Notes under the pieces: model-generated
What the model was told of the DNA's origin: nothing
The model's input: only the letters and a program-made list of their open reading frames with translations
Database searches by the model: none
Source: Phycisphaeraceae bacterium
GTDB lineage: Bacteria > Planctomycetota > Phycisphaerae > Phycisphaerales > Phycisphaeraceae
Direction: 5' to 3'
Assembly (NCBI GenBank): GCA_019634195.1
Contig: JAHQVV010000223.1
Coordinates: 1 to 32,428 of the forward strand
Length of the DNA stretch: 32,428 nt
Part shown: positions 3,126 to 30,844 of the stretch, in pieces
Layout of the letters: each line of letters opens with the position of its first letter
How positions within the stretch are numbered: position 1 is the stretch's first letter
Translations under genes and position numbers: made by a program

Positions 3126-3446
3126 ATGTGATTTGTAATCGATCGGCGGGCTGCCTGCTCGTCGAGCATCGGGGTTGGGCTGATCATTTCGTGTGCAGTG
3201 TGGGCCTAGGGCGGTGATCTGGGAAAGAACGTTTTACCCATCACTTGCGCCACAGAGTGAACGCCACAGTGGCTCAAGCGGGGATTATTGATTGTTTATG
3301 CAGCGAGCCGCTGAGTTCTGGTGTTTTGGCACACCCTTTGTCAGTGCTCTGGTGACAGGCCACGACCTTGAGCCTGAGGGGCCCCCGCCACGCTGGCGAC
3401 CGGCCAATCGGATTTGTACCAACAGCAAACCAGAAGGGACTCCACG

Positions 3447-4271: not shown

Positions 4272-4296
4272 CGTGACAAGTCTAAGATTCCTCCTG

Positions 4297-4335
4297 CCCT
4301 GGCGGTCGTTTTCGAAGCGACCGTCAGGGTTTTTT
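4297..4335 (+). terminator. Rho-independent terminator
   Basis: CCCTGGCGGTCG-TTTTCGAAG-CGACCGTCAGGG stem-loop followed by TTTTTT. Confidence 0.9.
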
Positions 4336-4408
4336 CATGGACACAACCAATCAAGCCCATGGCGTGCCTGCTCTGAGGCATGCCGCGGGATACCGCTACA
4401 CTTTGGTT

Positions 4409-5599
4409 ATGTCTCAAGAACGCACACGCCTCGTCGCGGGCTGCATGACCGGTACCTCACTGGACGGCCTGGACGTCGCGCTCGTAAAAATCATCGGCAC
4501 CGGCCTGGAGATGAAGGCCGAGCTGCTCGGCCACCACGCGCTGTCGATGCCCGAGGACCTGCGCAGCACGCTGAAGTCACTCGCATCGGGTGAGCCGAAC
4601 GAGCCGATCACCTACATGCGTGCGGCCCGCGCACTCGGCGAACTCCACGCGGATGGTTTACAGCAACTGTTGGCCGGCGGGCTCGTCTCGCCGCTTGATC
4701 AACCGGTTGACTTTGTCGCCGCCCATGGCCAAACCATCTGGCACGCCCCGAGAGATGAACAAAAAATTTCCGGCGGCGGGCCCAAGAGCTGGCAACTCTT
4801 CGACCCCTGGCCGATCGTTAAGCGGCTAAACGTCCCCGTTTGCTACGACCTCCGACAGGCCGACCTGATCGCCGGCGGCGAAGGCGCCCCGCTGACCCCG
4901 ATCGCGGATTGGGTGATGTATCGGGAACACGCCGACATCGTGGCGAACCTCGGCGGGGTCCTGAACATCACGAAACTCGATGCAGATCCAAGCCGGATCG
5001 AAGGCGCCGATCTGTACCCCTGCAACCTGCTGCTCGATGGTCTGTGCAAGCGGTATTTCGACAAGGCTTACGACACTGACGGCGAGTTGGCTGGGCGCGG
5101 GTGTATCCAGCCGGCCTTGGTTGAGGTGATTTTTGAGGCGATTGATGAAGCGTGCCAAGGGAAGAAGTCTTTGGGCCGCGAACAGTTCTCTCCTGATTGG
5201 CTTGATCGTTTGGTTGGGTTGATCGGTGTTGTGGAGTCGCCAGAAGATGTCTTAAGCACCGCAGCACGATTGGTAGCGGTTCAACTCGGCGGTGAGTTCC
5301 GTGAAGCCGGCGTCCCGCAAGAGCGGATGATCCTCGCGGGCGGCGGGGCCAACAATCAAACGCTTGTCAAGGTTATCGAGAAAAGGGGCTATCGCGAGGT
5401 GCGCCGGTCCGACGACCTCGGCATCCCCTGTGAAGCACGCGAGGCGTTTGCGTTCGCGGTACTCGGGGCGTTGTCGCAGGACGGCGTGCCTATCTCGCTG
5501 CCGCAGGTGACGGGGGCAGCAGGCCCCGGTGTCGCGGGGGTTTGGGCGGGGGCACGACGGCGTCGTTCACTCCGAGACTGTTCGCCGGGTAGACTTTGA
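4409..5599 (+). CDS. anmK: Anhydro-N-acetylmuramic acid kinase
   Basis: GCMTGTSLDGLDVALV, VDFVAAHGQTIWHAP, ADIVANLGGVLNIT, ILAGGGANNQTL motifs; start at 4409 (MSQERTRLVAG). Confidence 0.93.
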   Translation: MSQERTRLVAGCMTGTSLDGLDVALVKIIGTGLEMKAELLGHHALSMPEDLRSTLKSLASGEPNEPITYMRAARALGELHADGLQQLLAGGLVSPLDQPVDFVAAHGQTIWHAPRDEQKISGGGPKSWQLFDPWPIVKRLNVPVCYDLRQADLIAGGEGAPLTPIADWVMYREHADIVANLGGVLNITKLDADPSRIEGADLYPCNLLLDGLCKRYFDKAYDTDGELAGRGCIQPALVEVIFEAIDEACQGKKSLGREQFSPDWLDRLVGLIGVVESPEDVLSTAARLVAVQLGGEFREAGVPQERMILAGGGANNQTLVKVIEKRGYREVRRSDDLGIPCEAREAFAFAVLGALSQDGVPISLPQVTGAAGPGVAGVWAGARRRRSLRDCSPGRL

Positions 5600-5605
5600 A
5601 TTGCC

Positions 5606-6595
5606 ATGACCACCCCCACCCCCAGCGAAGACCGCGGGCACCTCGCGACCGAGCAGCGCCTCGCCGCCGCCGCCGCGATCGATGCGCTGTCGGTCGAGGC
5701 GACCCTCCGGCTGATGAACACGCAGGACATGGAGGTCCCCCTGGCCATCCGCAAGGCGATCCCGCAGATCACGAAGGTCGTCGAGATCGTTGTCGCGGGG
5801 ATGAAGCAGGGCGGCCGACTGATCTATTGCGGCGCGGGGACGTCGGGTCGCTTAGGCGTGCTGGATGCCAGCGAGTGCCCGCCGACGTTTTGTAGCGACC
5901 CGGATCAGGTCGTCGGCATCATCGCGGGCGGCGACACCGCGCTGCGGAGCGCAGTCGAGGGCGCAGAAGACCAGCGCGACGGTGCCGTGCCAGACCTGGA
6001 TAAACTCAAGGTCACCGAGCACGACACCCTCATCGGCATCGCGGCGGGGGGCACGACACCCTACGTCTGGGGCGCGATCGATTACGCCCACAGCCGCGGC
6101 GCAAAGACGTCGCTAATGACCTGCGTGCCGATCAAGACGCTGATGACTCGGCCGCGTGCGAAGGTGGTCAAGCCCAATGAGCCGGTGAGCATCCCGCCTA
6201 GGCCCGAACTGCCCGCGCCGGTGTACCAGCCGATCGAACTGCTAGTCGGGCCCGAAGTCTTGACCGGTTCAACTCGCATGAAGGCCGGCACCGCCACCAA
6301 GCTTGCCCTCAACATGATCTCAACGACCGCCATGCTGCAGATGGGCAAGGCCTGGGGCAACCTCATGGTCGACCTCCGCGCGACCAACGCGAAACTCATG
6401 GACCGCTCGATCCGCATCGTCTCGTCGCAGGCTAGGATCACGCGCGAAGAAGCGGCGGACGTCCTCACGAAAGCCGAGGGCCGGGTCAAGCCCGCGCTCA
6501 TCATGGCCACCCGGGGCGTCGAACTAGGCGAAGCGAAGCGGCTGCTCGATCGGCACGAGGGCAAGTTAAGGCCGATCCTCGGCCCGCCGCGGTGA
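5606..6595 (+). CDS. murQ: N-acetylmuramic acid 6-phosphate etherase
   Basis: SIS-domain: [65 protein letters not shown]. Confidence 0.94.
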
Positions 6596-6603
6596 TGCCT
6601 GTA

Positions 6604-6705
6604 CGGTGTCGCGGGCGACGCGAAGCGTCCCGTTCGACGCTTCTAAACCAAGTCTCGCTCACAGATCACCGAAACGTGGGACACTTCGCGTCGCCCGCGA
6701 CACCG
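6604..6705. repeat. Inverted repeat, GTGTCGCGGG family copy 2
   Basis: Arms 6604..6631 CGGTGTCGCGGGCGACGCGAAGCGTCCC and 6678..6705; 27/28 nt complementary. Confidence 0.9.
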
Positions 6706-6729
6706 TTCTGTCGAGGTTATCATGCCTGT

Positions 6730-7200
6730 ATGAGCACCACCTCCACCAACACATCGATCGTACCCTGCCAGATCAAACGCCTTGCTGGCAACGCCGATTC
6801 GCCGCTGCCGGCCTACCAGTCCGAGCACGCGGCGGGGATGGATGTACACGCGTTTCTAAGTGAGAACGTCACGATCGAGCCGGGCAAAATTGTTCTGGTG
6901 CCGACGGGCTTCGCGATCGCGGTGCCCGAGGGCTACGAGGCCCAGCTCCGGCCGAGGTCGGGGCTGGCGTGTAAGTTCGGCGTGACGCTGCCCAACTGCA
7001 CCGGCACGATCGATGCGGACTACCGCGGTGAGGTGAAGGTCGCCCTGATCAATCTCGGTGAGAGTCCCTTCACCGTTGAGCCGGGCATGCGCATCTGCCA
7101 GATGATCGTCAAGGAAGTGCCCAAGTGCGTCTGGCAGGAAGTTGATGAGCTCAGCGACACCGTCCGCGGTTCTGGCGGCTTCGGGCACACGGGGCACTGA
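6730..7200 (+). CDS. dut: dUTP diphosphatase
   Basis: Trimeric dUTPase motifs: [46 protein letters not shown]. Start at 6730. Confidence 0.94.
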
Positions 7201-7222
7201 GCGCGTTGCATGTTTTGTCTTA

Positions 7223-7305
7223 GGTGGGATAGGCTTCCGGCCTGTCGTCAAGGCGAAGCCTTGGTCGATGTACTTACGAATGGCAGGCAAGATGCCTATC
7301 CCACC
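7223..7305. repeat. Inverted repeat, GGTGGGAT family copy 1
   Basis: Arms 7223..7246 GGTGGGATAGGCTTCCGGCCTGTC and 7282..7305 (reverse complement GGTGGGATAGGCATCTTGCCTGCC); 20/24. Confidence 0.85.
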
Positions 7306-7319
7306 ATGCGATCCTAAAG

Positions 7320-8261
7320 ATGAAGATTATTTCTGCCGACGATGTTCACGCTTCGCTGTCGTACCCGGCGATGGTCGATGCGCTTCAAGAGGCTTATTCG
7401 GGTTCGTTCAGCATGCCGCCGCGGCAGGTGTTCTTGTTGGATGATGAGCCGGGCAACCATGATGCGTTCGCGGTGCTCCCGTCGTGGAACGATGAACTGA
7501 TCGCGGTGAAGTCGTTTACGTACTTCCCGGACAACCCGCCCCCGGAATTCTCGTCGCTTTACTCGAAGATCATGCTGTTTGATCGCAAGCACGGTGAACC
7601 GTTGGCGCTGGTCGATGGGACGAGCGTGACGTTCTGGCGTACTGCGGGGATTTCAGGCCTAACGTCACGACTGTTGTCGCGAGAAGATTCGAAGACGTTG
7701 CTACTACTAGGCACCGGCAACCTCGCGCCGTACATCATCAAGGCTCAGTTGAGCGTCCGTCCGATCGAGCGCGTGATGACCTGGGGCCGCACGCCGAACA
7801 AGGCGAAGGCGATTACTGAGCAGTTCGCTAACGAAAACAAAGCGGTGCGCTTTGAGGCGGTCGAAGACCTGCAACACGCCTGCGGCGAGGCCGACATCAT
7901 CGTCAGCGCGACCGGCTCGCACGAACCCCTGGTCCTCGGCGACTGGGTCACGCCCGGCACGCACACCGATTTCATCGGCAACCACCACGCCACCAAACGC
8001 GAGTGCGACACGGCACTGGTCGCAAAGTCCAAGGTCTATGCCGACAGCTACGTCAACTGCTTCAAAGAAGCGGGCGAGGTGCTCGTCCCCATCGACGAAG
8101 GCGCGATCACCAAAGACCACATCCTCGGCGAACTCACCGAGATGTGCAGCGGGGCGGTGAAACTACGTGAGTCTGAAGAAGAGATCACGCTGTTCAAATC
8201 GATCGGGATGGCGTTGAGCGATCTTGTTGGTGCGGGGGCGGCCTATAGGGCGATCACTTAA
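7320..8261 (+). CDS. Ornithine cyclodeaminase / mu-crystallin family protein
   Basis: MKIISADDVHASLSYPAMVDALQEAY, PPRQVF, RTAGISGL, LLGTGNLAPYIIKAQ, IIVSATGS: family motifs. Confidence 0.9.
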   Translation: MKIISADDVHASLSYPAMVDALQEAYSGSFSMPPRQVFLLDDEPGNHDAFAVLPSWNDELIAVKSFTYFPDNPPPEFSSLYSKIMLFDRKHGEPLALVDGTSVTFWRTAGISGLTSRLLSREDSKTLLLLGTGNLAPYIIKAQLSVRPIERVMTWGRTPNKAKAITEQFANENKAVRFEAVEDLQHACGEADIIVSATGSHEPLVLGDWVTPGTHTDFIGNHHATKRECDTALVAKSKVYADSYVNCFKEAGEVLVPIDEGAITKDHILGELTEMCSGAVKLRESEEEITLFKSIGMALSDLVGAGAAYRAIT

Positions 8262-8706
8262 CCGGCCAATCTTCCCGGACCCAATCTCTTATGACGATTC
8301 CTCTGACGTATGGAACCCCATCTCTATTGATTCCAAATCGTTCTTGGCACACATCAAGTACAGCTTGCCGTATCGCAATGCGGTCAGGGTCATTAAGCAT
8401 TTCCTGTGTGGCTCTGGCCATGATCTCGTATAAAGATTGAGCATTGCGACCCGCATGAGAACTAAATACATTCTCCATATAGGCATGATCGCGTTCACTT
8501 ACGACAGCGTAAAAAGTCACGTTATAGAGATAGGTGTTGTCCCCCTGATTTCGCGTGTTTTGGAACCGGTCTCCGAGAAGAAGTACTTGCACATCGGGGC
8601 CAGGCTCATTGAGCCGATGAAGCGATTCCTCTATCGAAGAGTCAGATGATGATTTGCAGCGAGAAGATAAGAGTGCAAAGATTGTGGCTAACACCAAGGG
8701 TCGCAT
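8254..8706 (-). CDS. Small putative lipoprotein, possibly FliL-like
   Basis: Likely start 8706: MRPLVLATIFALLSSRC resembles a lipoprotein signal. C-terminal half 'DPDRIAIRQAVLDVCQERFG...VRGIVIRDWV' is reminiscent of FliL-like domains (weak). Confidence 0.5.
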   Translation of the reverse strand: MRPLVLATIFALLSSRCKSSSDSSIEESLHRLNEPGPDVQVLLLGDRFQNTRNQGDNTYLYNVTFYAVVSERDHAYMENVFSSHAGRNAQSLYEIMARATQEMLNDPDRIAIRQAVLDVCQERFGINRDGVPYVRGIVIRDWVREDWPVK

Positions 8707-8739
8707 TAGGCACCTCCATGTGTTGTACTGCAGGATCAA

Positions 8740-9357
8740 TCACCCATCAAACGCTTCGAAGTGCTTGTTCTGGATCGGCGTGACGACCTCGATGATGTCG
8801 TGCAGGATGGTTGCAGGGCTGCCGATCGAATCGATGTTGATGATGTCTTCGGCGGGGTAGTGGTCGAGTACCGGCTCGGTCTCGCGCTTGTACACGTCCC
8901 AGCGGTTGCGGATCACTTGTTCGTCCGCATCATCAATACGGTTTTCTTTCAGCGCCCGACGACGCAGGCGTTCGAACATTGCGTTCTCGTCGGAGCAGGT
9001 CAGGTGGATGACCTTGTAGACGTGGATGTGCTCGTCCATGAGTTTGGCTTGTTCGACGGTGCGCGGGATGCCGTCGAGGATGAGCAGGTCGTCGTTGGGT
9101 TTGTAGATGCCGAGCGTGACGCGGGCGGCGATGTTCTTGGCCCACATCTTGACGGTGATCTCGTCGGGCACGAGCTCGCCGCGCGAGGAGGTCTCGTAGA
9201 AGATCTTGCCCAGGTCGGAGTTGATGTCGATGTTGCGGAAGACTTCGCCGCAGGACATGTGGAAGAAGCCGGGGATTCGGCCGAGGATGTTGCCCTGGGT
9301 CCCTTTGCCCGCCCCGGGGGCCCCGAAGAGGAGGATGGTCTTGTAGCGGTCGGGCAT
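8740..9357 (-). CDS. adk: Adenylate kinase family nucleoside monophosphate kinase
   Basis: LLFGAPGAGKGTQGNILG, SCGEVFR, LILDGIPRTVEQA, ENRIDDADEQVIRNRW. Confidence 0.85.
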   Translation of the reverse strand: MPDRYKTILLFGAPGAGKGTQGNILGRIPGFFHMSCGEVFRNIDINSDLGKIFYETSSRGELVPDEITVKMWAKNIAARVTLGIYKPNDDLLILDGIPRTVEQAKLMDEHIHVYKVIHLTCSDENAMFERLRRRALKENRIDDADEQVIRNRWDVYKRETEPVLDHYPAEDIINIDSIGSPATILHDIIEVVTPIQNKHFEAFDG

Positions 9358-9553
9358 GGCAGGTCTTTCGTGGGCTTCTTGCCCGGCGGAGTCGGATCGG
9401 GTGAGCGTTCTGTGAGGGGAGCGGCCGATTTTAATCTTCGGTCAATCCCTTGCACGGCTTGTCTTGGCCGATTTGACTGCTTAGAATGATTCCAAAGGTC
9501 AATTTACTATCAAACCGGCCTCCGAGGGCCGGAATCACGGATAAAATTCTGAT

Positions 9554-10789
9554 ATGAGCTTAAAACTGCCTATCTACCTCGATCATAACGCCACCACGCC
9601 GATGGACCCGCGTGTGCTGGACGCCATGCTGCCGTACTTCACCGAGAAATTTGGCAACTCGGCGAGCCGTAACCACCAGTACGGGTGGGACGCGGAAGAG
9701 GGCGTCGACTACGCCCGCGAGCAAGTGGGCAACCTCATCGGCTGTACGTCTAAGGAGATCGTCTGGACGTCCGGCTCGACCGAGTCGAACAACCTGGCCA
9801 TCAAGGGCGTCGCCGACATGTACGGCAAGAAGGGCAACCACATCATCACCGCGGTCCACGAGCACAAGGCCACGCTCGACCCGGTCAAGCGGCTGCAGAA
9901 GCAGGGCTTTGATGTGACCTGGCTTGAGCCGAACTCGGACGGCATCATCACCGCCGAGGCGGTCGAAGGGGCGCTGCGTGACGACACGATCCTTGTGACG
10001 ATCATGTGGGCCAACAACGAGCTGGGCACGATCAACGAGATCCCCGAGATCGGCAAGATGCTTAAAGAAAAGCACAGCGAGAAGGACAAGCCGATCCTGC
10101 ACACGGACGCGACGCAGTGGGTGGGCAAGATGCCGACCGATGTCGAGCGCGACGGGGTAGACCTGCTCAGCGCATCGGCTCACAAGATGTACGGGCCCAA
10201 GGGCGTCGGCTTCTTGTACGTGCGTCGCCGTCGGCCACGCGTCCGCCTGACCCCGATCATCGATGGCGGCGGCCACGAACGCGGCATGCGATCGGGCACG
10301 CTCAACGTCACTGGCATCGTCGGCATGGGTAAGGCCTGCGAGATCGCGGGCCAGGAAATGGACAGCGAGCAGGGACGCCTGCTCAAGATGCGGACCCGGC
10401 TCGAAGAGGGCATCACCAGCAAGCTCGAGATGGCGGTCATCAATGGCCACCCGACCAAGCGACTGCCCGGCACGACGAACATCAGTTTTCCCTACGTTGA
10501 AGGCGAATCCCTGATGATGGCCATCAAGGAGATCGCGGTGTCTTCCGGCTCGGCCTGCACCAGCGCGTCACTCGAACCCAGCTACGTGCTCAAGGCTTTG
10601 GGCCTGGGCGACGAGATCGCCCACAGCTCGATCCGCTTCGGCATGGGCCGGTTTACGACGGACGAAGAAATCGATTATACGATCGAGAAGGTCGTGAAGA
10701 ACGTGCAGCACCTGCTGGACATGAGCCCGCTGTGGGAGATGGTCCAGGAAGGCATCGATCTGGACAGCATCGAGTGGGGTGCCCACTAA
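9554..10789 (+). CDS. iscS: Cysteine desulfurase
   Basis: YLDHNATTPMDPRV, WTSGSTESNNLAIKG, HEHKATLDP, SASAHKMYGPKGVGFLYVRR, SSGSACTSASLEPSYVLKALG. Confidence 0.94.
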   Translation: MSLKLPIYLDHNATTPMDPRVLDAMLPYFTEKFGNSASRNHQYGWDAEEGVDYAREQVGNLIGCTSKEIVWTSGSTESNNLAIKGVADMYGKKGNHIITAVHEHKATLDPVKRLQKQGFDVTWLEPNSDGIITAEAVEGALRDDTILVTIMWANNELGTINEIPEIGKMLKEKHSEKDKPILHTDATQWVGKMPTDVERDGVDLLSASAHKMYGPKGVGFLYVRRRRPRVRLTPIIDGGGHERGMRSGTLNVTGIVGMGKACEIAGQEMDSEQGRLLKMRTRLEEGITSKLEMAVINGHPTKRLPGTTNISFPYVEGESLMMAIKEIAVSSGSACTSASLEPSYVLKALGLGDEIAHSSIRFGMGRFTTDEEIDYTIEKVVKNVQHLLDMSPLWEMVQEGIDLDSIEWGAH

Positions 10790-10857
10790 TTAAAGCACTG
10801 CTTAAGTCCACCCGCCCCGCCAATCAACCGATATAAACAAAACAAAGGAGCCTCACT

Positions 10858-11295
10858 ATGGCTTACAGCGAGAAGGTCATCGACCACTACGAAAACCCCC
10901 GCAACATCGGCACGATGGACAAAGCCGACCCCAACGTCGGCACCGGCGTCGTCGGCGCCCCCGAGTGTGGTGACGTCATGCGGCTGCAGATCAAGGTCAA
11001 CCCCGAGACCGGCGTCATCGAAGACGCCAAGTTCAAGACTTTCGGCTGCGGCAGCGCGATCGCCTCGAGTTCCCTCGCCACCGAGTGGCTCAAGGGCAAG
11101 AGCCTGCACGATGCCGACGAGATCAAGAACACGGATATTGTCCAAGAGCTGGCGCTCCCGCCGGTGAAGATCCACTGCTCGGTCCTGGCCGAGGACGCGA
11201 TCAAGCACGCCTTGGAAGACTACCTCGAGAAGCACGGCAAGACGATGGAGTCGCTGCACGAGCACGACCATGAGCACGAAGACGCCAAGGCGTAG
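10858..11295 (+). CDS. iscU: Iron-sulfur cluster assembly scaffold IscU/NifU-like
   Basis: MAYSEKVIDHYENPRNIGTMDKADPNVGTGVVGAPECGDVMRLQIKV, FKTFGCGSAIASSSLATEWLKGKS, PPVKIHCSVLAEDAIKHALEDY. Confidence 0.94.
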   Translation: MAYSEKVIDHYENPRNIGTMDKADPNVGTGVVGAPECGDVMRLQIKVNPETGVIEDAKFKTFGCGSAIASSSLATEWLKGKSLHDADEIKNTDIVQELALPPVKIHCSVLAEDAIKHALEDYLEKHGKTMESLHEHDHEHEDAKA

Positions 11296-11378
11296 CTGTA
11301 CTGGTGGGATGGGCGTCCCGCCCGTCATCAAAGCGATCTGATTCGCGACGGCCATCCCACCGGACCAAGGCGTAACTG
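11285..11378. repeat. Inverted repeat (GGTGGGAT family copy 2) flanked by 14-nt direct repeats
   Basis: IR outer ends 11303..11361 (GGTGGGATGGGCGTC...GACGGCCATCCCACC). Direct repeats CCAAGGCGTAGCTG 11285..11298 and CCAAGGCGTAACTG 11365..11378 (13/14). Confidence 0.85.
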
Positions 11379-20369: not shown

Positions 20370-22295
20370 ATGACTAGCCCGATCCACCGCAGTATTACGA
20401 AGGTCCAACGCAGAATCGCCGCTAACCGTGTGCTCCGTGCAACGGGCTGGGCGGTGCTTGTCGGCCTGCTGGCGGCGTCGGCGATGCTCATCGTCGATCG
20501 GCTGCTTCCCATGACCGTGATGCCCATCTGGACCTACGCGATCGCGGGGGGCGTGGCGCTGGTGGTCGCCATGATCTTCGCCCTGCAGAACCTCCCCGGT
20601 GAAGCGGATGCGGCGGTGCTGCTCGACGACAAGCTCGGGCTCAAGGACAAGCTCGGCACCGCGCTGTACGCCGCGACGCTCGAACAGCAAAACGAACTGA
20701 CGCAGCAGGTCGCCCGTGAGGCGGATGTGGCCGCGGACCAGGCGCGTGTGATGGTCGCCCAAGCGGCGCCGATCGAGTTCGCCCGGGTCTGGAACTACAC
20801 GCCGATCGCCGCGGCGGTGCTGCTGGCGGTTCTGTTCCTCGTGCCCGAAGACCTGGGCGACCCGCTGGGCCAGGTCGCTGCCGCAGAGGCCGAGGAGCAA
20901 GAAAAGCGCTTGGTCGAGGAAGGCGAAGTCATTATTAATACGATCGAGCAGGGGCTCGACGAGCCGGAGGAAGAGGGCGAGCAGAAGATCGCCGAGGGTC
21001 TGCCCGACGAGCTGCGTGACCAGCTGGTGTCGATCTCCGATCAGGTGCGCAACGACCCGAGCAGCGCTGAAGAAAAACTGAAAGAAGCCGAGTCGCTAAT
21101 CAGCGATGCCGAGTCGCGCTTGGGCGAGCAGGCGGACGTGATCGAGGCGGCGTACAACCCGCTGCGCAACGCGGCGAGCGGTTTGGACCCGGGTCAGACC
21201 GGCCCGGCCGACGAGTTCACCCGCGCGATGAACCAGGGCGACTTCGAGAAGGCCAAGGAAGCCTTAGAAGACATGCAGGAGGCGATCGAGAAGGGCGAGT
21301 ACAGCGAAGAAGAACGCCAGCAGCTCCAGCAGCAGCTCAACAACGTCGCCCAGCAGCTCAATCAGCAGGCCCAACAAGCCCAGCAGGCCCAGCAGCAAGC
21401 CGCGCAACAGGCCCAGCAGCAGATGGCCCAGCAGCTCCAGCAGTCGGGCATGAGTCCCCAGCAAGCCCAGCAGATGGCACAACAGATGGCCCAGCAGGCT
21501 CAGCAACAACAGCAGCAGGGCCAGCAAGGCCAGCAGCAACAACAGGGTCAGCAAGGACAACAAGGTCAGCAGGGCCAAAGTCAGCAGCAGATGCAGCAGC
21601 AGTTGCAACAGGCCTTGCAGCAGCAGGGCATGAGCCAGCAGCAGGCCCAGCAGCAAGCGCAACAGATGATGCAGCAGATGCAGCAACAGATGCAGCAGAG
21701 CCAGGGCCAGCAGCAGAGCGGGCAGATGCAGCAGCAGCTCAGCCAGGGCCTGCAGCAGATGGCCAGCCAGTGCCAGAACCCCGGCCAAGGCCAGCAAGGT
21801 CAGCAGGGACAGCAAGGCGGCCAACAAGGCCAGCAGGGCGGTCAATCCGCTCAACAAGCGATCAACCAGATGGCTCAGATGCAGCAGCAGCTCCAGCGGA
21901 TGCAGCAGCAGCAGGGCCAGATGCAGCAGGCCATGCAGCAGATGCAGCAGATGCAACAAGGCCAGGGCGGCGGCCAAGGCCCGGGATGGGGCAGTTCGCC
22001 CGGCGGCAACCCGTACGGCCCCGAGAACCAGTCTTACCAGCACCAGAGCTACGCCGCCCAGGACATCCAGCAGGGCGAGGGCCGGGTCATCGCGTCCTGG
22101 ACCGAGAACGGCGAGGTCGCGCCCGGGGAGGCTACCGTGCAGTTCAACGCGTCACGTACCGAGGCGGTCCAGGCCGCGGAACGAGCCGTGACCGAAGACC
22201 GCGTGCCACGCCGCTACCACGAGTCGGTCAAGGACTACTTCCAGCAGCTGCCCGAAGACCCTAACGCCGGCAAGGCACCGGCGGCACCGCGCTAA
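20370..22295 (+). CDS. Gln-rich membrane-anchored protein, first gene of MoxR/vWA operon
   Basis: Two N-terminal TM segments, acidic/coiled region, then extensive Q/M/G-rich low-complexity tract and a conserved-looking C-terminus (VIASWTENGEVAPGEATVQF...VPRRYHESVKDYFQQLPED). Confidence 0.8.
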   Translation: MTSPIHRSITKVQRRIAANRVLRATGWAVLVGLLAASAMLIVDRLLPMTVMPIWTYAIAGGVALVVAMIFALQNLPGEADAAVLLDDKLGLKDKLGTALYAATLEQQNELTQQVAREADVAADQARVMVAQAAPIEFARVWNYTPIAAAVLLAVLFLVPEDLGDPLGQVAAAEAEEQEKRLVEEGEVIINTIEQGLDEPEEEGEQKIAEGLPDELRDQLVSISDQVRNDPSSAEEKLKEAESLISDAESRLGEQADVIEAAYNPLRNAASGLDPGQTGPADEFTRAMNQGDFEKAKEALEDMQEAIEKGEYSEEERQQLQQQLNNVAQQLNQQAQQAQQAQQQAAQQAQQQMAQQLQQSGMSPQQAQQMAQQMAQQAQQQQQQGQQGQQQQQGQQGQQGQQGQSQQQMQQQLQQALQQQGMSQQQAQQQAQQMMQQMQQQMQQSQGQQQSGQMQQQLSQGLQQMASQCQNPGQGQQGQQGQQGGQQGQQGGQSAQQAINQMAQMQQQLQRMQQQQGQMQQAMQQMQQMQQGQGGGQGPGWGSSPGGNPYGPENQSYQHQSYAAQDIQQGEGRVIASWTENGEVAPGEATVQFNASRTEAVQAAERAVTEDRVPRRYHESVKDYFQQLPEDPNAGKAPAAPR

Positions 22296-22318
22296 TTTGT
22301 TGATGGTTCGTTTAGTTC

Positions 22319-22389
22319 ACCACAGAGAACACAGAGGGCCACAGAGTAGATTTTGACTTTGCTCTGTGGCCCTCTGTGTTCTCTGTGGT
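22319..22389. repeat. Perfect inverted repeat (CACAGAG family), empty hairpin
   Basis: 28-nt arms ACCACAGAGAACACAGAGGGCCACAGAG (22319..22346) and exact reverse complement (22362..22389); 15-nt loop TAGATTTTGACTTTG. Confidence 0.97.
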
Positions 22390-22480
22390 AAAACACGAGC
22401 ACCAATAAACTTCGAAGAGTTAATCGATCCTAGACGCCTTCCTCCTCATCCTGGCCCTCGCCTACCTGACCACCGCGGGG

Positions 22481-25400
22481 GTGCTGGCGATGTGGCTGGC
22501 CTGGATCGGGCTGGCGTGGGCAACAGGCAAGGTTGAGAACCCGACAATGCCGTTGCCGCAGCTCATCACGCTCGGCGCGTTGGCCGCCGTCGCGGCCGGC
22601 CTGTGGTTCGCGTTCGGCCTGACCGACAAGCTCACGTTTGATCGGCCCAGCCTCCTGCTGCTCGCACTCATCGCGCTGCCGATCTTCGCGCTCGGGGCGT
22701 GGTCCCTGCAGCAGCTCGGCCCGGCAAGGCGTTGGGCGTCCGTCGGCCTGCGCGTCTTCGTGCTCCTGTTGATCACGGTCATGCTCGCCGGCTTCCGCTC
22801 GGTGCAGACCCACGACGAGCTGACCGTCGTCTCGCTGATCGATACCAGCGATTCGGTCCGCAAGTTCTTCACGCCCCCGCTCGGGCCCGACGGCCAGCCG
22901 CAGGACTACGAGCAGTGGCTCGCGTCGTATTTCCAGCAGGCCGGCGGCGATAAGCGCAGCGAAGACTATTGGTCCGTTCAGACTTTTGATGGCCGGCCGA
23001 CGATCCGCCTGAGCCCGTCGCTTGGCGAGGTGACGATCCCGCTGGGCTCGATCGATCAGCCGTACGAGGGCTCGAACGTGCAGCGCGCCATCGAGTCGGC
23101 CATGGCCGCCAAGCAGCGCGGCGACTCGGCCCTGCGCATCGTGCTGGTCAGCGACGGAAACCTCGACGGCGAGGTCATGGCCGCTGTCCAGGCCGCCGCC
23201 GCGGCGGGCGTGCAGATCGACGTCGTCCCGCTGCAGTACAAGGTCAAGGGCGAGGTCATGGTCGAGGCCGTGCGTGCCAACCCCGAGGCTCGCAAGGGAC
23301 AGACGGTCAAGGTCTCCGTCGAGCTGCGATCCGCCGACCGCGTGCCCGGCCAGCTCAAGCTTAAGCATAACGGCAAATGGGTCGACCTCAACGGCGCGGC
23401 CCAGGGCGAGGGGCTCCGCATCGAGGCCAAGGAGTGGCAGACGCGCATCGACGCCGGTGAAGAAGAGATCGGCCTCTACGCGCTGACCAAGTACATCGAC
23501 CGGCCCATCAGCGAAGCGGGCGTCAACACCTTCGATGCGATCTTCGAGCCGGATGACAAAACGGGCTTAGCCAACACAATCGTTTCGAACGACACCGGCC
23601 AGGCCTTCACCCTCGTCGCCGGACCGGGCAAGGTGCTCGTCGTCGATGGCGTCGATGGGCAGGCCGGGCAGATCCTCCCCCGGGCCCTGGCCGAGCGCGG
23701 CATCGACACCATCCTAGCGCCTGTTACCGCTATGCCCAGCCGGCTGCGCGACATGCGCAACTACGATGCGATCCTCTTCAACAATGTCGCGGCCGACAAC
23801 GTCCCGCCCAAGGTCCAGAAGAACCTCACCCGCTACGTCCACGACCTGGGCGGTGGCTTCGTGATGATCGGCGGGCCCGACTCCTTCGGTGCCGGCGGCT
23901 GGACCAACACCGACATCGACAAGTACATCCTCCCCGTCCACTGCCAGATCCCCACGCAGAAGATCCTGCCCTCCGGGGCGCTGGTCCTCGTCATCGACCG
24001 GTCCGGCTCGATGTTCGGCAGCGTCGGCGGCACCAGCCAGACCCAGCAGAACGTCGCAGCCGAGGCCGCGATCCTCGCGCTCAAGTCGATGTACCCGCAG
24101 GACAAGGTCGGCGTCGTCGCCTTCGACACCCAGGCCCACTGGATCGTCGACCTGCAGTACAACAAAGACCCCGCGGGCATCGCCAAGAAGATCCGCGCGA
24201 TGCAGCCCGGGGGGGGCACGGACATCCGCGTCGGCGTTGACGCCGCCTACAAACGGCTCGCCGCGGAGCCCGTCGGCGAGTCCGCGATCAAGCACATGAT
24301 TGTCATCTCTGACGGTCACGGCGACTTCCACCAGAACCCCTTCCAACTCGGCGGCAGGCTCGGCCAGGCCGGCGTCACGATCTCCACCATCGGCGTGGGC
24401 GACGGTCACAACGCCGCCGGCCTCCAGGCCTTGGCCAACACCGGCAACGGCAATTTTTACCCCGTCACCAACCCCGCCAACCTGCCGCAGGTCTTCATCA
24501 AAGAGGCCCGCGCGATCCGCAAGAACCTGATTAAAGAAAAACCCTTCGACCCGGTCGTCCGCAACGTCGCTTCGCCGATCATGGTCGGGATCAACGACGT
24601 CCCGACGCTGCGCGGGTTCGTGCTGACCGGGGCCAAGTCTGACCCGCGCATCTTCACGCCGATCGTCGCCGACGAAGGCGAGCCGATCTTCGCCCACCAC
24701 CAGGTCGGACTGGGCCGCGCCGCCGCGTTTACTGCGGATGCCACCAACCGCTGGGCGCAGGACTGGCTGGGCAACTGGGCCAGCGGCAGCAACTACGCCG
24801 ACTTCTGGGCCCGCACCGTCCGCCAGATCGCTAGGCCCGCCGCGTCGACCCAGGCCGACCTCACCACCACCGTCGCCGGCGACACGATGACGATCCGCCT
24901 CGACGCCGCGGACGATGTCGACTTCAACGCCTCCCGCGGAGCGTCCTTCGGCAACAACCTCCAGGTCACCGGCAGCGTTGAAGACCCCGACGGCAACCTC
25001 ATTAACGTCACCCTCGAGCAGGTCGGCCCGGGCATCTACGAGGCCCGTATCCCCGCTCGGCAGGCGGGTAACTACATCGTCGACCTGAACATGCGATCGC
25101 CCGATGGCGAGGCCCGACGCGTCATCGGCGGCTCGAGCAAGGCGGCCGGCGGCGAGCTACGGAACTTCCAGTCCAACGTTGCGCTGCTCCAGCAGATCGC
25201 CGAGATGACCGGCGGGCGCGTCTTGGACCCGGGCGACCCGGCGGCCGCGAACCTCTACAACCGCGACGTGCCGATCGAGAGCACCAGCACACGCCCGCTG
25301 CGCTGGCAGCTTATGCCGTTCTTGTTGGCGCTCTTGCTGCTGGACGTCGCCTGTCGACGCATCGCGTGGGAGGGCCAGGAGGTCGCCGCCTGGGCCAAGG

Positions 25401-25831
25401 GCCGGGCCAACGCCATCGCAGGCATTACCCGCACCCGCAAGGTCGAGAGCGAGAACACCATGGCCGCGCTCAAGGCCAAACGCGAAGCAACCACCGAGAA
25501 GCTCAACAAGCCTGCTGAAGCGACCCCGCTCGGCGGCCTGGCCGCCAAGGTCAAGGGCAGTACCAACGGCGAAGCAAAAACAAGCAAACCCAAAGCGAAG
25601 CCCGCGACCAGCAAGACCCGCAAGTTCGTCGCCAGCGAAGAAGACCTCACCAAGGCTAGCGACGACTTCAGCGACGCCGTCGGTGGCGCAAAGGAAGGCG
25701 CAGCCGCCAAACCCATCGTTACCGCCGCGATGCGCAAGAGCGACAAACCCCAGGACCAAGGCCCCATGACCTCAAGACTGCTCGACGCCAAACGCCGAGC
25801 CCAAGAACGTATGAACGAGCAAGAGGAATAG
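22481..25831 (+). CDS. Large membrane protein with vWA domain and glutamine-amidotransferase-like region
   Basis: MIDAS motif VLVIDRSGSMFG, GVVAFDTQAH, GGGTDIRVGVDAAY; 'YVHDLGGGFVMIGGPDSFGAGGW'. GTG at 22481 is the first canonical start; frame is open back to about 22424. Confidence 0.85.
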   Translation: MLAMWLAWIGLAWATGKVENPTMPLPQLITLGALAAVAAGLWFAFGLTDKLTFDRPSLLLLALIALPIFALGAWSLQQLGPARRWASVGLRVFVLLLITVMLAGFRSVQTHDELTVVSLIDTSDSVRKFFTPPLGPDGQPQDYEQWLASYFQQAGGDKRSEDYWSVQTFDGRPTIRLSPSLGEVTIPLGSIDQPYEGSNVQRAIESAMAAKQRGDSALRIVLVSDGNLDGEVMAAVQAAAAAGVQIDVVPLQYKVKGEVMVEAVRANPEARKGQTVKVSVELRSADRVPGQLKLKHNGKWVDLNGAAQGEGLRIEAKEWQTRIDAGEEEIGLYALTKYIDRPISEAGVNTFDAIFEPDDKTGLANTIVSNDTGQAFTLVAGPGKVLVVDGVDGQAGQILPRALAERGIDTILAPVTAMPSRLRDMRNYDAILFNNVAADNVPPKVQKNLTRYVHDLGGGFVMIGGPDSFGAGGWTNTDIDKYILPVHCQIPTQKILPSGALVLVIDRSGSMFGSVGGTSQTQQNVAAEAAILALKSMYPQDKVGVVAFDTQAHWIVDLQYNKDPAGIAKKIRAMQPGGGTDIRVGVDAAYKRLAAEPVGESAIKHMIVISDGHGDFHQNPFQLGGRLGQAGVTISTIGVGDGHNAAGLQALANTGNGNFYPVTNPANLPQVFIKEARAIRKNLIKEKPFDPVVRNVASPIMVGINDVPTLRGFVLTGAKSDPRIFTPIVADEGEPIFAHHQVGLGRAAAFTADATNRWAQDWLGNWASGSNYADFWARTVRQIARPAASTQADLTTTVAGDTMTIRLDAADDVDFNASRGASFGNNLQVTGSVEDPDGNLINVTLEQVGPGIYEARIPARQAGNYIVDLNMRSPDGEARRVIGGSSKAAGGELRNFQSNVALLQQIAEMTGGRVLDPGDPAAANLYNRDVPIESTSTRPLRWQLMPFLLALLLLDVACRRIAWEGQEVAAWAKGRANAIAGITRTRKVESENTMAALKAKREATTEKLNKPAEATPLGGLAAKVKGSTNGEAKTSKPKAKPATSKTRKFVASEEDLTKASDDFSDAVGGAKEGAAAKPIVTAAMRKSDKPQDQGPMTSRLLDAKRRAQERMNEQEE

Positions 25832-25837
25832 ATTTTT

Positions 25838-26354
25838 AACCACAGATGCACACGGATGGACACGGATTCATGACCGAAATTGGTAGGACACTTCAGGAAT
25901 CAGATGTGATAGGTAGGCAGATTGTCGCTATCTACCAGTCTTATCAATTGCAAGATGATTGGCTTGATGTATTTGACACATGCTTCCGACTCGATACGGG
26001 CTTGGTAATCTCGATGGGCATCGCCATTAATCCGTGTGATTTAACTGACGAAACGAAGCAACTTATTCCTGACGATCCGGAAGTGCGAAATCAATTGATC
26101 GGTCAAGCCATCGAAGGTGTCTATTTTGACGCTGAAGCTGGAGATGATCTGGAAGATGGCGACCTTTGTATCAAATTAGAAAATGGAAGATTTTTGATGA
26201 CTGTATCAATGGCTCCACACGGCACCGGCGGTGCAGGAATGTGGGTTAATGATCCCGATGATCCGCCCTTTGACTCAATGAAGCGGTATCGCTTTGAACC
26301 AGAAGCAAATGTGAATTGATTTGAATCCGTGTCCATCCGCGTTCATCTGCGGTT
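25838..26354. repeat. Inverted-repeat pair (CACRGAT family) enclosing one ORF (cassette A)
   Basis: Arms 25838..25870 AACCACAGATGCACACGGATGGACACGGATTCA and 26322..26354 (reverse complement AACCGCAGATGAACGCGGATGGACACGGATTCA); 30/33. Confidence 0.95.
25870..26319 (+). CDS. Small hypothetical acidic protein inside inverted-repeat cassette A
   Basis: 149 aa from ATG at 25870 (alternative start 25846 inside the arm); MTEIGRTLQESDVIGRQIVAIYQSYQ...; AT-richer than neighbours; stop 2 nt before the right arm. Confidence 0.7.
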   Translation: MTEIGRTLQESDVIGRQIVAIYQSYQLQDDWLDVFDTCFRLDTGLVISMGIAINPCDLTDETKQLIPDDPEVRNQLIGQAIEGVYFDAEAGDDLEDGDLCIKLENGRFLMTVSMAPHGTGGAGMWVNDPDDPPFDSMKRYRFEPEANVN

Positions 26355-26373
26355 CCAAAAAGGATTGAAAATT

Positions 26374-27417
26374 ATGGCAGCATCCGAACCCCAAGCCAAC
26401 GAACAAAACATCCTGCAACAGGCCGACGCGTTCCGTTCGTCGTACAAGAGCGTCCGCGAGCAGATCGCCAAGATGGTCGTCGGCCACGACGAGATCATCG
26501 ACGGCGTCCTGACCTGCCTCTTCACCGGCGGCAACGCGCTCCTGGAAGGCGTGCCCGGCCTGGGTAAGACGCTGCTCATCCGTTCGCTGAGCCAGGCGCT
26601 CTCGCTGGACTTTAGCCGTATCCAGTTCACGCCCGACCTCATGCCCGCGGACATCACCGGCACGACCATCGCCGTGGAACAACAGCACGACGACGGCAGC
26701 ACGTCCCGCGTCTTCCAGTTCCGAAAGGGGCCGATCTTCGCCCAGATCGTCCTGGCCGACGAGATCAACCGCGCGACGCCGAAGACACAGTCGGCCATGC
26801 TCGAAGCGATGCAGGAACGCAGCGTTACCGTCGGCGGCACGACCTACCCGATGAGCAAGCCCTTCTTCGTCATGGCGACACAGAACCCCATCGAACAAGA
26901 AGGCACCTACCCGCTGCCCGAGGCGCAGCTGGACCGCTTCATGCTCAAGCTCGAGGTCGGCTACAGCAAACGCGAAGACCTGCACGAGATCGTCAACCGC
27001 ACCACCATGGCAAGCTCGCCAACGATCGACCCTGTGCTCGACGCGGAAAAGATCGTCGACTTCCAGAAGGTCATCCGCCAGGTCATCATCGCGCCGCACG
27101 TGCAGGACTACGCGATCCGTGCGGTGCTCGCGACGCACCCCGGTGGCGAGTTCGCTGGCAACATGGCCAGCCAGTTCCTCCGCTTCGGCGGCAGCCCCCG
27201 CGCATGCCAGGCCCTGGTCCTCGGCGGCAAGGTGAAAGCACTGTTGGATGGCCGAGCCCACGTCAGCGTCGAAGACATCAAAGCCGTCATGCTCCCCGCG
27301 CTCCGTCACCGCGTCCTGATGAACTTCGAAGGCCAGGCCGAGGGCGTAACGCCAGACATGGTCATCAACGACATCATCGACAAGCTGCCCGTGGAAGCTG
27401 CGGGGTTGAAGGTTTGA
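26374..27417 (+). CDS. MoxR family AAA+ ATPase
   Basis: MVVGHDEIIDGVLTCLFTGGNALLEGVPGLGKTLLIRSLSQAL, DEINRATPKTQSAMLEAMQE, ATQNPIEQEGTYPLPEAQLDRFM. Start 26374 (MAASEPQ); the 26329 start would translate the repeat arm. Confidence 0.95.
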   Translation: MAASEPQANEQNILQQADAFRSSYKSVREQIAKMVVGHDEIIDGVLTCLFTGGNALLEGVPGLGKTLLIRSLSQALSLDFSRIQFTPDLMPADITGTTIAVEQQHDDGSTSRVFQFRKGPIFAQIVLADEINRATPKTQSAMLEAMQERSVTVGGTTYPMSKPFFVMATQNPIEQEGTYPLPEAQLDRFMLKLEVGYSKREDLHEIVNRTTMASSPTIDPVLDAEKIVDFQKVIRQVIIAPHVQDYAIRAVLATHPGGEFAGNMASQFLRFGGSPRACQALVLGGKVKALLDGRAHVSVEDIKAVMLPALRHRVLMNFEGQAEGVTPDMVINDIIDKLPVEAAGLKV

Positions 27418-27432
27418 GGTTGTAGAGTTTTT

Positions 27433-27870
27433 CACAGAGGTCACGGAGGCACAGAGATCACAGAGGAAGGCAAATGGATTTTGAACCTTGGAAAAACCAT
27501 CCGCAGAGTGATTCGGAGTATTTGCAAAGACCCGAGGCTCAGCCTCACCTAAAGGTGATGGAAGTGTTGCGTGAATGGGATCCGATCGGAGTGGATCCAA
27601 ACAATACGCCTGGAGCTTTTGATGAATATGACAGCTACGCAGGGCCAATTGTGAGTTTTTTGGATCAGGGAGTCGATATTGACGTGATGTTGAATTACTT
27701 AAGGCGGATAGTCCATGACCACATGGGTTTGACCAATTTTGAAGAAAATAAAACACGGCAACTACTGAGAGAGTTAATAGCTTGGTGGGCTGAATGGAAC
27801 AATCACCAGTTGGATCAAAACTAAATCCCCTGCCTTCCTCCGTGACCTCTGTGCCTCTGTGTCCTCCGTG
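27433..27870. repeat. Inverted-repeat pair (CACRGAG family) enclosing one ORF (cassette B)
   Basis: Arms 27433..27472 CACAGAGGTCACGGAGGCACAGAGATCACAGAGGAAGGCA and 27831..27870 (reverse complement CACGGAGGACACAGAGGCACAGAGGTCACGGAGGAAGGCA); 35/40. Confidence 0.95.
27474..27824 (+). CDS. Small hypothetical protein (tentatively DUF1871-like) inside inverted-repeat cassette B
   Basis: 116 aa; 'VLREWDPIGVDPNN...DEYDSYAGPIVSFLDQGVDIDVMLNYLRRIV'; GAGGAAGG RBS-like sequence lies in the left arm; stop 6 nt before the right arm. Confidence 0.7.
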   Translation: MDFEPWKNHPQSDSEYLQRPEAQPHLKVMEVLREWDPIGVDPNNTPGAFDEYDSYAGPIVSFLDQGVDIDVMLNYLRRIVHDHMGLTNFEENKTRQLLRELIAWWAEWNNHQLDQN

Positions 27871-27893
27871 GTAAAGCGAAGCGCAAACAAATC

Positions 27894-28829
27894 ATGACAA
27901 TCGCATCCACAACCCGAATCTCAAAAACAGGCGACCTCTTATCGCCTGATTTTATGAGGCAACTCGACAAGCTCGACGTTATGTCGCGGAAGATGCTGCG
28001 CGGCAGTCAGCAGGGCGAGCGGCGGACCAAGAAGAAGGGCCAGTCCGTCGAGTTCGCCGACTACCGCAGCTACGTCGTCGGGGATGACCTGCGTTTTATC
28101 GACTGGAACCTCTACATGCGGCTGGACAAGCTGTTCATCCGCTTGTTTATGGAAGAAGAAGACTTGTCCGTCTCGATCGTGCTCGATGTCACCGGGTCGA
28201 TGGACTACGGTGAGCCGAACAAGCTCGAGTACGCGAAGAAGCTCTGCGCGGCGCTGGGCTACATCTCGCTGACGCACCACAACCGAACGAGCCTGTATAC
28301 GATGGCTGACGGCCTGCTCGAGTCCTCGCAGGGTATGCGCGGGAGGCGCCCGATCCCGCAGATGCTCGAATTCCTCAATCGTCAACAGGCGCTATCGCCC
28401 GACGCGCAGCGCCCCGGCGACATGACCAGCACGTTCAAGTCCCTGGCGGTCCAGAACCAGCTCCCCGGCGTCACGATCGTTGTTTCTGACTTCTGGGATA
28501 AGGGCGACGTCTCCGACGCTTTCCGCTTCCTGGCCGGCGACAAGAAGGACACCTACCTGATCCACCTGCTCTCGCCTCAGGAGGTCGACCCGGTCAAGGG
28601 CAAGGTCGTCGGCGACCTGCGCCTGACTGACCTTGAAGACGGCGACATTGCCGAGGTGTCGGTGAGCCCCGCGCTCGTTAAGAAATACAAGGCCACCCTG
28701 CAGGCCTACTGCAACCACATCAAGGACCAGGCCCACCGACGCGGACTGGCGTACATGATCAGCGAGACAGACGTGCCGTTCGAAGTGATGGTGCTGCAGT
28801 ACCTGCGGCAGAGGGGGTTGCTCGCTTAA
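27894..28829 (+). CDS. DUF58 domain-containing protein
   Basis: GERRTKKKGQSVEFADYRSYVVGDDLRFIDWNLYMRLDKLFIRLFMEEEDLSVSIVLDVTGSMDYGEPNKLEYAK: DUF58 signature. Confidence 0.95.
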   Translation: MTIASTTRISKTGDLLSPDFMRQLDKLDVMSRKMLRGSQQGERRTKKKGQSVEFADYRSYVVGDDLRFIDWNLYMRLDKLFIRLFMEEEDLSVSIVLDVTGSMDYGEPNKLEYAKKLCAALGYISLTHHNRTSLYTMADGLLESSQGMRGRRPIPQMLEFLNRQQALSPDAQRPGDMTSTFKSLAVQNQLPGVTIVVSDFWDKGDVSDAFRFLAGDKKDTYLIHLLSPQEVDPVKGKVVGDLRLTDLEDGDIAEVSVSPALVKKYKATLQAYCNHIKDQAHRRGLAYMISETDVPFEVMVLQYLRQRGLLA

Positions 28830-30844
28830 TGGGATTTATCTCGCCACTCGTCGCGGCCATCGCAGCAGGGATCACCATCCCCGCTTTAGTATCGCTCTAC
28901 TTCCTCAAGCTCAAACGCAAGCGGATGGTGATCCCGTCGACGCTGCTCTGGCAGCGCGCGGTACAGGACCTTCAGGTCAACGCGCCGTTCCAGAAGATCA
29001 AGAACAACCTGCTGCTGTGGGTGCAGTTGTTATTGCTTTTGCTGCTGCTTGTCGCGATGGCCCGGCCGACGCAGAACGCGTTCGCCTCGCCGGGCGAGCG
29101 GGTTGTGATCGTCATCGACCACTCCGCCTCGATGAACACGACCGACGCGGACGGAGAGTCGCGCCTCGAGGCCGCGAAAGAACGTGCACTCGAGGTCGTT
29201 GCCAACCTCGACGCCGGAGGCGGTGATCAGGCGGGGGCCGGGGCGATGGTGATCGCCTACGCGCACCGCACGGTCGTGCTGCAGGACTTCACAACGGACC
29301 TGGCCCGCGTCCGCAGCGCGATCCGCGGGGTCGAGGCGACGGACCAGAAGACGCACCTGGACAGCGCGATCGCCGCGGTCGAGCCGCACGCACGCCAGAC
29401 CGGCGGCGACGACAAGCTCTACGTCCACGTCTTCAGCGACGGCCGGGTGAGCAAGTCCACCGACGAGCCGCTCGCCCTTGCGAACGCGGAAGTCCGCTAC
29501 CACAGCATCGGCGATTCCGGTGCAACCTCCGGCAGCAACCTCGCGATCGCGGCGCTCAGCGCCAGGCGGGACCTCGAGAAACCCCAACTCGTGCAAGTCT
29601 ATGCCAGGCTCGCCAATTACAGCGACCAGGCGGTCACGACCAACGTCCGCTTCATGGCCGACGACCGTGTGCTCTCGACGCAGCGGGTCACGGTCCCCGC
29701 CGTATCGAAGGTGGCCTTGGCCCCGGGCGTGCTGCCTCCGCCGGGCGAGACGGGGCTGACGTTCGACATGACCTGGCTGGGCGATGCGCTGATCACGATC
29801 AGCCACGACCACCAGGACCTGCTTCGGGCGGACAACTCGGCCCGGATGCTGTTGACGCCCTCGCGCGAGCTGCGTGTCCTCATGGTCACCACCGGCAACG
29901 GGTACCTCGAACTGGCCTGCCAATCCGCGGGCATCGAGAATCTCGTGCAGATGACGCCCGACCAGTTCGAGAAGCAGGACCCCAAGCGCCTGCGGCGTGG
30001 TGGCTGGGACGACGCGGCCATCGCCGGGGCGAGCGGCGCCGCGGGCGAGGGCTTCGATGTCATCGTGTTTGATCGCTACGCACCCAAAGACGTCCCGCTG
30101 ATTAACAGCCTGTACTTCGGCGTCGTCCCGCCGTTGGAAGGCTTATCACGCAAAGACACCCGGCCCGACTCACCCGCCAACGAGCTGATCACGCAGTGGG
30201 ACCGCTCCAGCGAGTTACTCCGTAATGTTGAGCTCAGCGACATCCCCTTGCGTCGGCCCGGGCGTCTGGTCGTGCCGGTCGACGGGACGGTGATGGCGAT
30301 CGGGCGCGAAGGGCCGGTGATGGCGGAAGTCACACGCGACACGGTCCGGCACGTGGTGGTCGGCTTTGACCTGTACGAATCGCTCTGGCCGCACCGGATC
30401 AGCTTCCCGGTCTTTATCAAGAACGTGCTGCCGACCCTCGGGCTCGATGGCAACACGCAGGAGGCGGGCATCGGCTACCACACCGGCGAGAACGCGGTGG
30501 TCCTGGTCGACACCGAGATCGACGCGCTCAAGTACACCGGCCCGGCCACGATCGCCGGCCGAGCGCTGGGCACGACCTTCGCCGTCGACGCCTTCCCCCG
30601 TGTCGGCCTGTACGAGACCAAGGCGGATGTCCCGACCCGCTACAAACAACTCGCGGTCAACCTGCTTGACACCGCAGAAAGCGACCCACGCGTCGCCGAG
30701 GTCTTAGAGATCGGCACGAGCAGCCAGGCCCAGCAGGCCCAGGCCGTCGAAGTCCGCAAAGAGATCTGGCCCTGGTTCGTGTGGGGTGCGCTCGCGGTGC
30801 TATTGATGGAGTGGATGGTGTATGCGCGGCGGATGCATATTTAA
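28829..30844 (+). CDS. BatA-like N-terminal domain / vWA protein
   Basis: MGFISPLVAAIAAGITIPALVSLYFLKLKRKRMVIPSTLLWQRAVQDL (BatA N-term), MIDAS VIVIDHSASMNTTD, C-terminal TM; overlaps DUF58 stop (TAATG). Confidence 0.9.
   Translation: MGFISPLVAAIAAGITIPALVSLYFLKLKRKRMVIPSTLLWQRAVQDLQVNAPFQKIKNNLLLWVQLLLLLLLLVAMARPTQNAFASPGERVVIVIDHSASMNTTDADGESRLEAAKERALEVVANLDAGGGDQAGAGAMVIAYAHRTVVLQDFTTDLARVRSAIRGVEATDQKTHLDSAIAAVEPHARQTGGDDKLYVHVFSDGRVSKSTDEPLALANAEVRYHSIGDSGATSGSNLAIAALSARRDLEKPQLVQVYARLANYSDQAVTTNVRFMADDRVLSTQRVTVPAVSKVALAPGVLPPPGETGLTFDMTWLGDALITISHDHQDLLRADNSARMLLTPSRELRVLMVTTGNGYLELACQSAGIENLVQMTPDQFEKQDPKRLRRGGWDDAAIAGASGAAGEGFDVIVFDRYAPKDVPLINSLYFGVVPPLEGLSRKDTRPDSPANELITQWDRSSELLRNVELSDIPLRRPGRLVVPVDGTVMAIGREGPVMAEVTRDTVRHVVVGFDLYESLWPHRISFPVFIKNVLPTLGLDGNTQEAGIGYHTGENAVVLVDTEIDALKYTGPATIAGRALGTTFAVDAFPRVGLYETKADVPTRYKQLAVNLLDTAESDPRVAEVLEIGTSSQAQQAQAVEVRKEIWPWFVWGALAVLLMEWMVYARRMHI

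Follow-up and report, generated by a model that had tools for sequence, protein, structure and literature searches.

Our analysis of a 32,428-nt stretch of DNA from a Phycisphaeraceae bacterium (hereafter the window; contig C220 of a 3.62-Mb draft genome) reveals that a small ORF in a MoxR/vWA operon and the inverted repeats enclosing it (cassette A) occupy an exchangeable slot, which in congeners holds different cargo, an empty hairpin, or nothing, and that the arms of cassette A are members of a dispersed arm family, which most often carries GxxExxY (TIGR04256). We lean towards the reading that cassette A is a one-gene unit resembling a mobile insertion cassette (MIC), with GxxExxY-family arms and with movement that would be driven by GxxExxY. 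The features of the operon, in order along the window, are:

22316..22392, + strand, empty hairpin of the CACAGAGG-type family (31-nt arms, 97% complementary; 15-nt loop)
22481..25831, + strand, vWA / GATase1-like protein, host operon
25833..25870, + strand, left arm of cassette A (three units, CACAGATGCA / CACGGATGGA / CACGGATT; best period 10)
25870..26319, + strand, ORF A (149 aa; 157 aa from ATG 25846)
26322..26359, + strand, right arm of cassette A
26374..27417, + strand, MoxR ATPase, host operon
27428..27472, + strand, left arm of cassette B (CACAGAGG-type units)
27474..27824, + strand, ORF B (116 aa)
27831..27875, + strand, right arm of cassette B
27894..28829, + strand, DUF58 protein, host operon
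28829..30844, + strand, BatA/vWA protein, host operon

The arms of cassette A are 38 nt each, 33/38 complementary (87%), and 451 nt apart. Their core is the pair of 33-nt inverted repeats round one ORF recognized in the preliminary description (30/33, 3 mismatches), which also correctly placed ORF A between the vWA gene and moxR, its ATG at 25870 starting at the final base of the left arm, and its TGA at 26317–26319, 2 nt short of the right arm; an ATG at 25846, within the left arm, also lies in the open frame, so the true start may be either. ORF A is, as had been noted, AT-richer than its neighbors (44.9% GC vs 66.6% for the vWA gene and 63.4% for moxR). An identical inverted-repeat scan (score at least 18) of 600 kb of order-2 Markov sequence returned one inverted repeat in total and none with a loop of 100–2500 nt, and the arm motifs CACAGATGNACACGGATG and CACAGAGGNCACAGAGG have 9 and 36 matches, respectively, in the window's own genome, vs 0 for the reversed control of each. 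Rfam matches to the hairpins were limited to sub-threshold microRNA models, as any long hairpin gives, and were set aside.

ORF A has no Pfam, NCBIfam, or PHROG match above the curated cut-off or at a meaningful E-value, no match to the TIGR04256 profile, and, in a single-sequence scan, no relative among genome contigs. Among 399 genomes of the phylum there is one clear homologue (35% identity; L186), which lies in another family of the phylum and lacks such arms; ORF A is thus probably a real protein family, carried here as cargo. Weaker matches in 61 relatives (E 0.004–0.008) fell on a long frame and a second frame, which from their translations we take to be Hsp70-like and peptidyl-prolyl-isomerase-like, respectively, and were judged to be chance. 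A structure model of ORF A built from two sequences has a pLDDT of 54.

Cassette B lies in the moxR–DUF58 gap, has 45-nt arms, and is built from a unit type other than that of cassette A. ORF B has a GC content of 44% (host genes, 63–67%), and matches no Pfam, NCBIfam, or PHROGs family above the curated cut-off or at a meaningful E-value, and not TIGR04256. Homologues of ORF B (43–51%) are present in the corresponding slot of G002 and G003 and, in G012, one slot further on; 3/7 homologues lie outside arms. The empty hairpin upstream of the vWA gene has a predicted RNA fold of −63.9 kcal/mol (z −12.2). Elsewhere in the window, compact hairpins at 6603–6706 (29-nt arms, 97%) and 7223–7305 (22-nt arms, 86%) belong to other, GC-rich, REP-like families, and families similar to these are common in G001. 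Upstream in the operon, positions 20370–22295 hold a large, glutamine-rich, repetitive ORF of 641 aa with no confident family.

Orthologous operons were fetched from relatives (one genome per species, many of them drafts, so that recent events are not datable). Five slots in two operons of four congeners hold GxxExxY, A, B, four-helix-bundle genes, empty hairpins, or nothing. In particular, the vWA–moxR slot, which the preliminary description had proposed to compare in close relatives, holds ORF A in the window genome (G000), GxxExxY in AACCGCAGATGAACGCGGATGAACGCAGATT arms in G002 (TIGR04256 match of 139.8 bits; cut-off, 35), an empty hairpin, AACCACCGATGCACACCGATCCACACAGATT, in G001, a decayed hairpin in G003, and, in the more distant relatives G012, G018, G026, and G031, a short gap of 29–70 nt with no palindrome. 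The moxR–DUF58 slot holds B in G000, G002, and G003, a four-helix-bundle gene in G001, GxxExxY in G018, G026, G042, and G046, and empty palindromes in G010, G012, and G007. The DUF58–BatA slot holds GxxExxY in G003 and G010 and B in G012, is empty in G001, G002, and G013, and is a 2-nt gap in G000. G031 has no palindrome at any of the three junctions.

A second operon, comprising what we read as an FtsX-like gene followed by an ABC ATPase gene, has the same kind of slot variation: its first slot holds GxxExxY in CGCAAAGG arms (G000), GxxExxY in CACAGAGG arms (G002), an empty hairpin with GTGGCCAAG-type units (G001), or an empty CACCGATG hairpin (G003); and its next junction holds GxxExxY in G000 and G001 and an overlapping ATGA stop/start with no insert in G002 and G003. 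Specifically, the GxxExxY cassette at L305 2816–3308 splits the ATGA overlap of the operon genes that is seen in congeners (L327 and L329). Comparison of the ftsX–ABC junction with uninserted G002 and G003, congeners and not near-identical strains, turned up no more than a possible ATGAC repeat flanking this cassette as a candidate target-site duplication.

Within a slot, the two arms of a pair change in concert, staying complementary while diverging. In hand alignments made from the outer ends without gaps, compensated pairs number 6/31 in G002 vs G001 (with 4 broken in one genome), 11/34 in the B cassettes of G000 vs G002, and 4/30 in G046 vs G042; in the moxR–DUF58 gap of the last two genomes (L314 and L315), the unit CGCAGAGG became CGCGAAGG in both arms. 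The cargo DNA of G046 and G042 is 73% identical, vs 88.7% for moxR, and B proteins are ~50% identical, with adjoining MoxR proteins at 87–93%. This divergence fits either replacement by a related cassette or fast evolution of the cargo, the two not being separable.

Enclosure by arms was scored as the local-alignment score of an inverted repeat bridging the gene, with thresholds set from controls after the data had been seen. By this measure, GxxExxY lies in arms at 27/29 loci within the order (score at least 16; 99% quantile, 15.5 in 401 control ORFs) and at 59/79 testable loci across phyla (score at least 15), vs 0.8% of 474 random intervals from the same loci. The cross-phylum set comprises the best 80 of 590 relatives, not a random sample, of which 79 were testable, and includes Planctomycetota, Verrucomicrobiota, Chloroflexota, Bacteroidota, Pseudomonadota, Cyanobacteria, Acidobacteriota, and archaea. 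Arm sequences vary on a common plan: tandem units, often starting (TTTG)AACC, with a best period of 8–11 nt in 46/48. The cargo points in the direction of both its neighbors (29 co-directed vs 1 opposed across phyla; 46/51 pooled, p 2e-9), and it therefore probably relies on transcription of the host operon, or else antisense insertions are removed. Across the 399 genomes, 81 have both the arm motif and GxxExxY, 18 the arm motif only, 113 GxxExxY only, and 187 neither (odds ratio 7.4, p 8e-15, a value that ignores kinship and partly counts the arms of the GxxExxY cassettes themselves). The 18 arm-positive genomes without detected GxxExxY include G344 (rated 100% complete; 21 arm matches), G343 (a draft; 120 arm matches), G111, and G049, which indicates that GxxExxY is not strictly needed to keep arms.

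The window's own genome contains further single ORFs in paired arms: ORF B, an ORF on each of contigs C41, C58, C105, C149, and C152, and two on C226. The cargo is GxxExxY on C105, C226 (both), C149, and C152, an ORF of 157–169 aa on C41, and a lipoprotein-like ORF of 157 aa on C58, the last two in GxxExxY-type arms; such arms also enclose a DUF429 gene (G002) and an ORF of 314 aa (G015). The preliminary description had proposed testing whether pairs of repeats across the genome each enclose one ORF, and the outcome is in its favor: single ORFs do recur in paired arms, with the qualification that many palindromes and arm pairs, scattered in the genome, are empty hairpins without an ORF. Its view of a mobile or exchangeable one-gene unit gains support from these pairs and from the slot states in congeners; what it missed is the usual cargo of the arms, GxxExxY, a predicted nuclease and candidate driver. 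The GxxExxY cassette on C105 has arm sequence, including GGAGCAAGGC, in common with empty hairpins (best match on C104), and its GxxExxY copy has an internal stop, indicating that some copies are dead. In G001, long inverted-repeat pairs that span more than one gene were taken to be neighboring palindromes paired by chance.

A second family of genes lies in arms of a different style. TIGR02436 four-helix-bundle genes, the rRNA intervening-sequence family, are enclosed at 26/30 loci (L267–L296), the arm period being 7 or 8 nt in 25/26, unlike the 8–11 nt of the GxxExxY style. Free combination of arm type and cargo was dropped on this account, the four-helix-bundle genes having 7–8-nt arms and GxxExxY mostly 8–11-nt arms; ORFs A and B sit in GxxExxY-type arms. 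Separately, L302 (G050:C20:112000-128000) contains, at 3071–11318, a gene array with ~1-kb spacing and back-to-back half palindromes between the genes (TGTGGT-ATCTTCT / AGAAGA-ACCACAGAG), which amounts to repeated gene units between mirrored arms.

The GxxExxY profile had no match among PDB sequences, and fold comparison was therefore used. The high-confidence structure model (pLDDT 94.9) has as its best PDB matches SSO0001 (a Cas4 protein), lambda exonuclease, LHK-Exo, and MGME1. Residues E21, D61, E71, and K73 are invariant in 29 sequences and correspond to the expected catalytic set. GxxExxY is thus predicted to be a Cas4/lambda-exonuclease-like PD-(D/E)XK nuclease.

Cassette A comprises two arms of degenerate tandem 8–11-nt units and one small cargo ORF, lying in the stop-to-start gap of an operon. 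In the model that we favor, the substrate of GxxExxY would be hairpins or cruciforms that the arms extrude, and arm homology may then guide repair or recombination that inserts, replaces, or deletes the segment; A and B would travel in trans as passengers, empty hairpins would be internally deleted, MITE-like forms, and the cargo would probably be translated from the host operon transcript. We infer this link from nuclease to movement from the nuclease fold, the invariant residues, the association of arms with GxxExxY, and the arm sequence common to the C105 cassette and empty hairpins. Weighing against it are the 18 arm-positive genomes without detected GxxExxY, among them the arm-rich G344, G343, G111, and G049, a target duplication not demonstrated, arms far more variable than normal transposon ends, and the occurrence of the A homologue (L186) and 3/7 B homologues outside arms. 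Homing endonuclease genes, which are single nuclease ORFs with presence/absence polymorphism at a fixed site, offer an analogy for the proposed mechanism; the cassettes differ in lying outside introns and inteins and in occupying a palindromic site, and the nuclease is Cas4-like, not LAGLIDADG, HNH, or GIY-YIG.

The arms could instead be ends moved in trans by a host tyrosine (RAYT/TIRYT-like) or DDE transposase, with GxxExxY a mere common passenger. REPtrons and TIRtrons, palindromes or TIRs with a Y1 transposase, are known from PVC phyla (PMC3733652), MICs have no transposase of their own (PMC3913671), and the arm-positive genomes without GxxExxY are consistent with such an arrangement. We nevertheless consider it unlikely, as no transposase was seen among the arm-enclosed ORFs in the stretches read, GxxExxY is enclosed at most sampled loci of many phyla, unlike a chance passenger, and the arms are degenerate tandem units, not a fixed end. 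A slightly less likely possibility is that the arms are dispersed homology, and that RecA-type recombination or template switching between hairpins swaps the loop contents with no dedicated enzyme. Neither the predominance of GxxExxY as occupant in many phyla nor the contrast at the ftsX–ABC junction between a full cassette and no palindrome is explained in this way, although arms are abundant and similar within genomes, similar GATG-type arms occur in one slot of four congeners with changing contents, and concerted arm change is expected of template switching at quasi-palindromes. That the hairpins are selected mRNA-processing or mRNA-stabilizing elements of operons, with ORFs in their loops by chance, is improbable: the slot has no palindrome in many relatives (in G031, at all three junctions) and the cargo is non-random, even though stable RNA hairpins, compensatory changes, operon position, and co-direction would all suit such elements.

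By definition, cassette A is closest to a mobile insertion cassette (PMC3913671), with which it has in common a non-transposase passenger gene between inverted repeats and modular cargo; its one ORF belongs to no transposase family, in line with the preliminary remark that the unit has no transposase of its own. MIC231 of Bacillus cereus terminates in the ends of a known IS, and in mic-qnrD a single, fixed IR pair is accompanied by a 2-bp target duplication (PMC3913671), whereas the arms here are degenerate tandem units varying between cassettes, with no known IS parent and no duplication shown. REPtrons and TIRtrons resemble the cassettes as single-gene units between palindromic repeats accompanied by many gene-less dispersed palindromes (PMC3733652), copies that the end palindromes here also have; the difference lies in the gene, since ORF A has no family and the usual central gene is a predicted PD-(D/E)XK nuclease, not an HUH/Y1 transposase, and the arms are by appearance unlike the GTAG/CGTC-tagged REPs of PMC3733652. 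The 23S rRNA intervening sequence (IVS) with S23p, a ~430-nt element whose long terminal inverted repeat carries a single ORF in its loop (PMC4990558), has the shape of cassette A, whose terminal repeats form one long stem round an ORF, and S23/four-helix-bundle genes occupy such arms; however, cassette A lies in the vWA–moxR gap, outside any 23S rRNA gene, the cassettes are in protein operons and not in rRNA helices 9/25/45, and S23p is unrelated to ORF A, ORF B, or GxxExxY.

In the literature searched, which left preprints and most subscription journals outside its scope, there is no report of these arms; a prior description is possible. In the same literature, six arm strings matched only papers on vertebrate biology, as judged by title and abstract, and the name GxxExxY is used in just two papers, in one of them in passing. 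Tentatively, GxxExxY may define an undescribed cross-phylum class of one-gene mobile element, namely a Cas4/lambda-exonuclease-like nuclease gene in a hairpin built from degenerate tandem units, with cruciform- or hairpin-dependent, homing-like spread and with non-autonomous relatives (A, B, others, and empty forms); the four-helix-bundle genes with 7–8-nt arms could form a parallel class, of which the 23S IVS would be a particular instance, one that inserted into rRNA.

Proteins of the GxxExxY and TIGR02436 families, which have no known role, turn up repeatedly across many environmental genomes. If this reading is true, both would gain a biology, as mobile one-gene units; it would account for a large class of palindromes that are scattered through Planctomycetota and other phyla, tie the cassettes to the long-puzzling rRNA intervening sequences, and provide a possible route for small genes into operons without an ordinary transposase. 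The enclosed small nuclease genes across bacteria point to a widespread, little-noticed family of one-gene mobile units.
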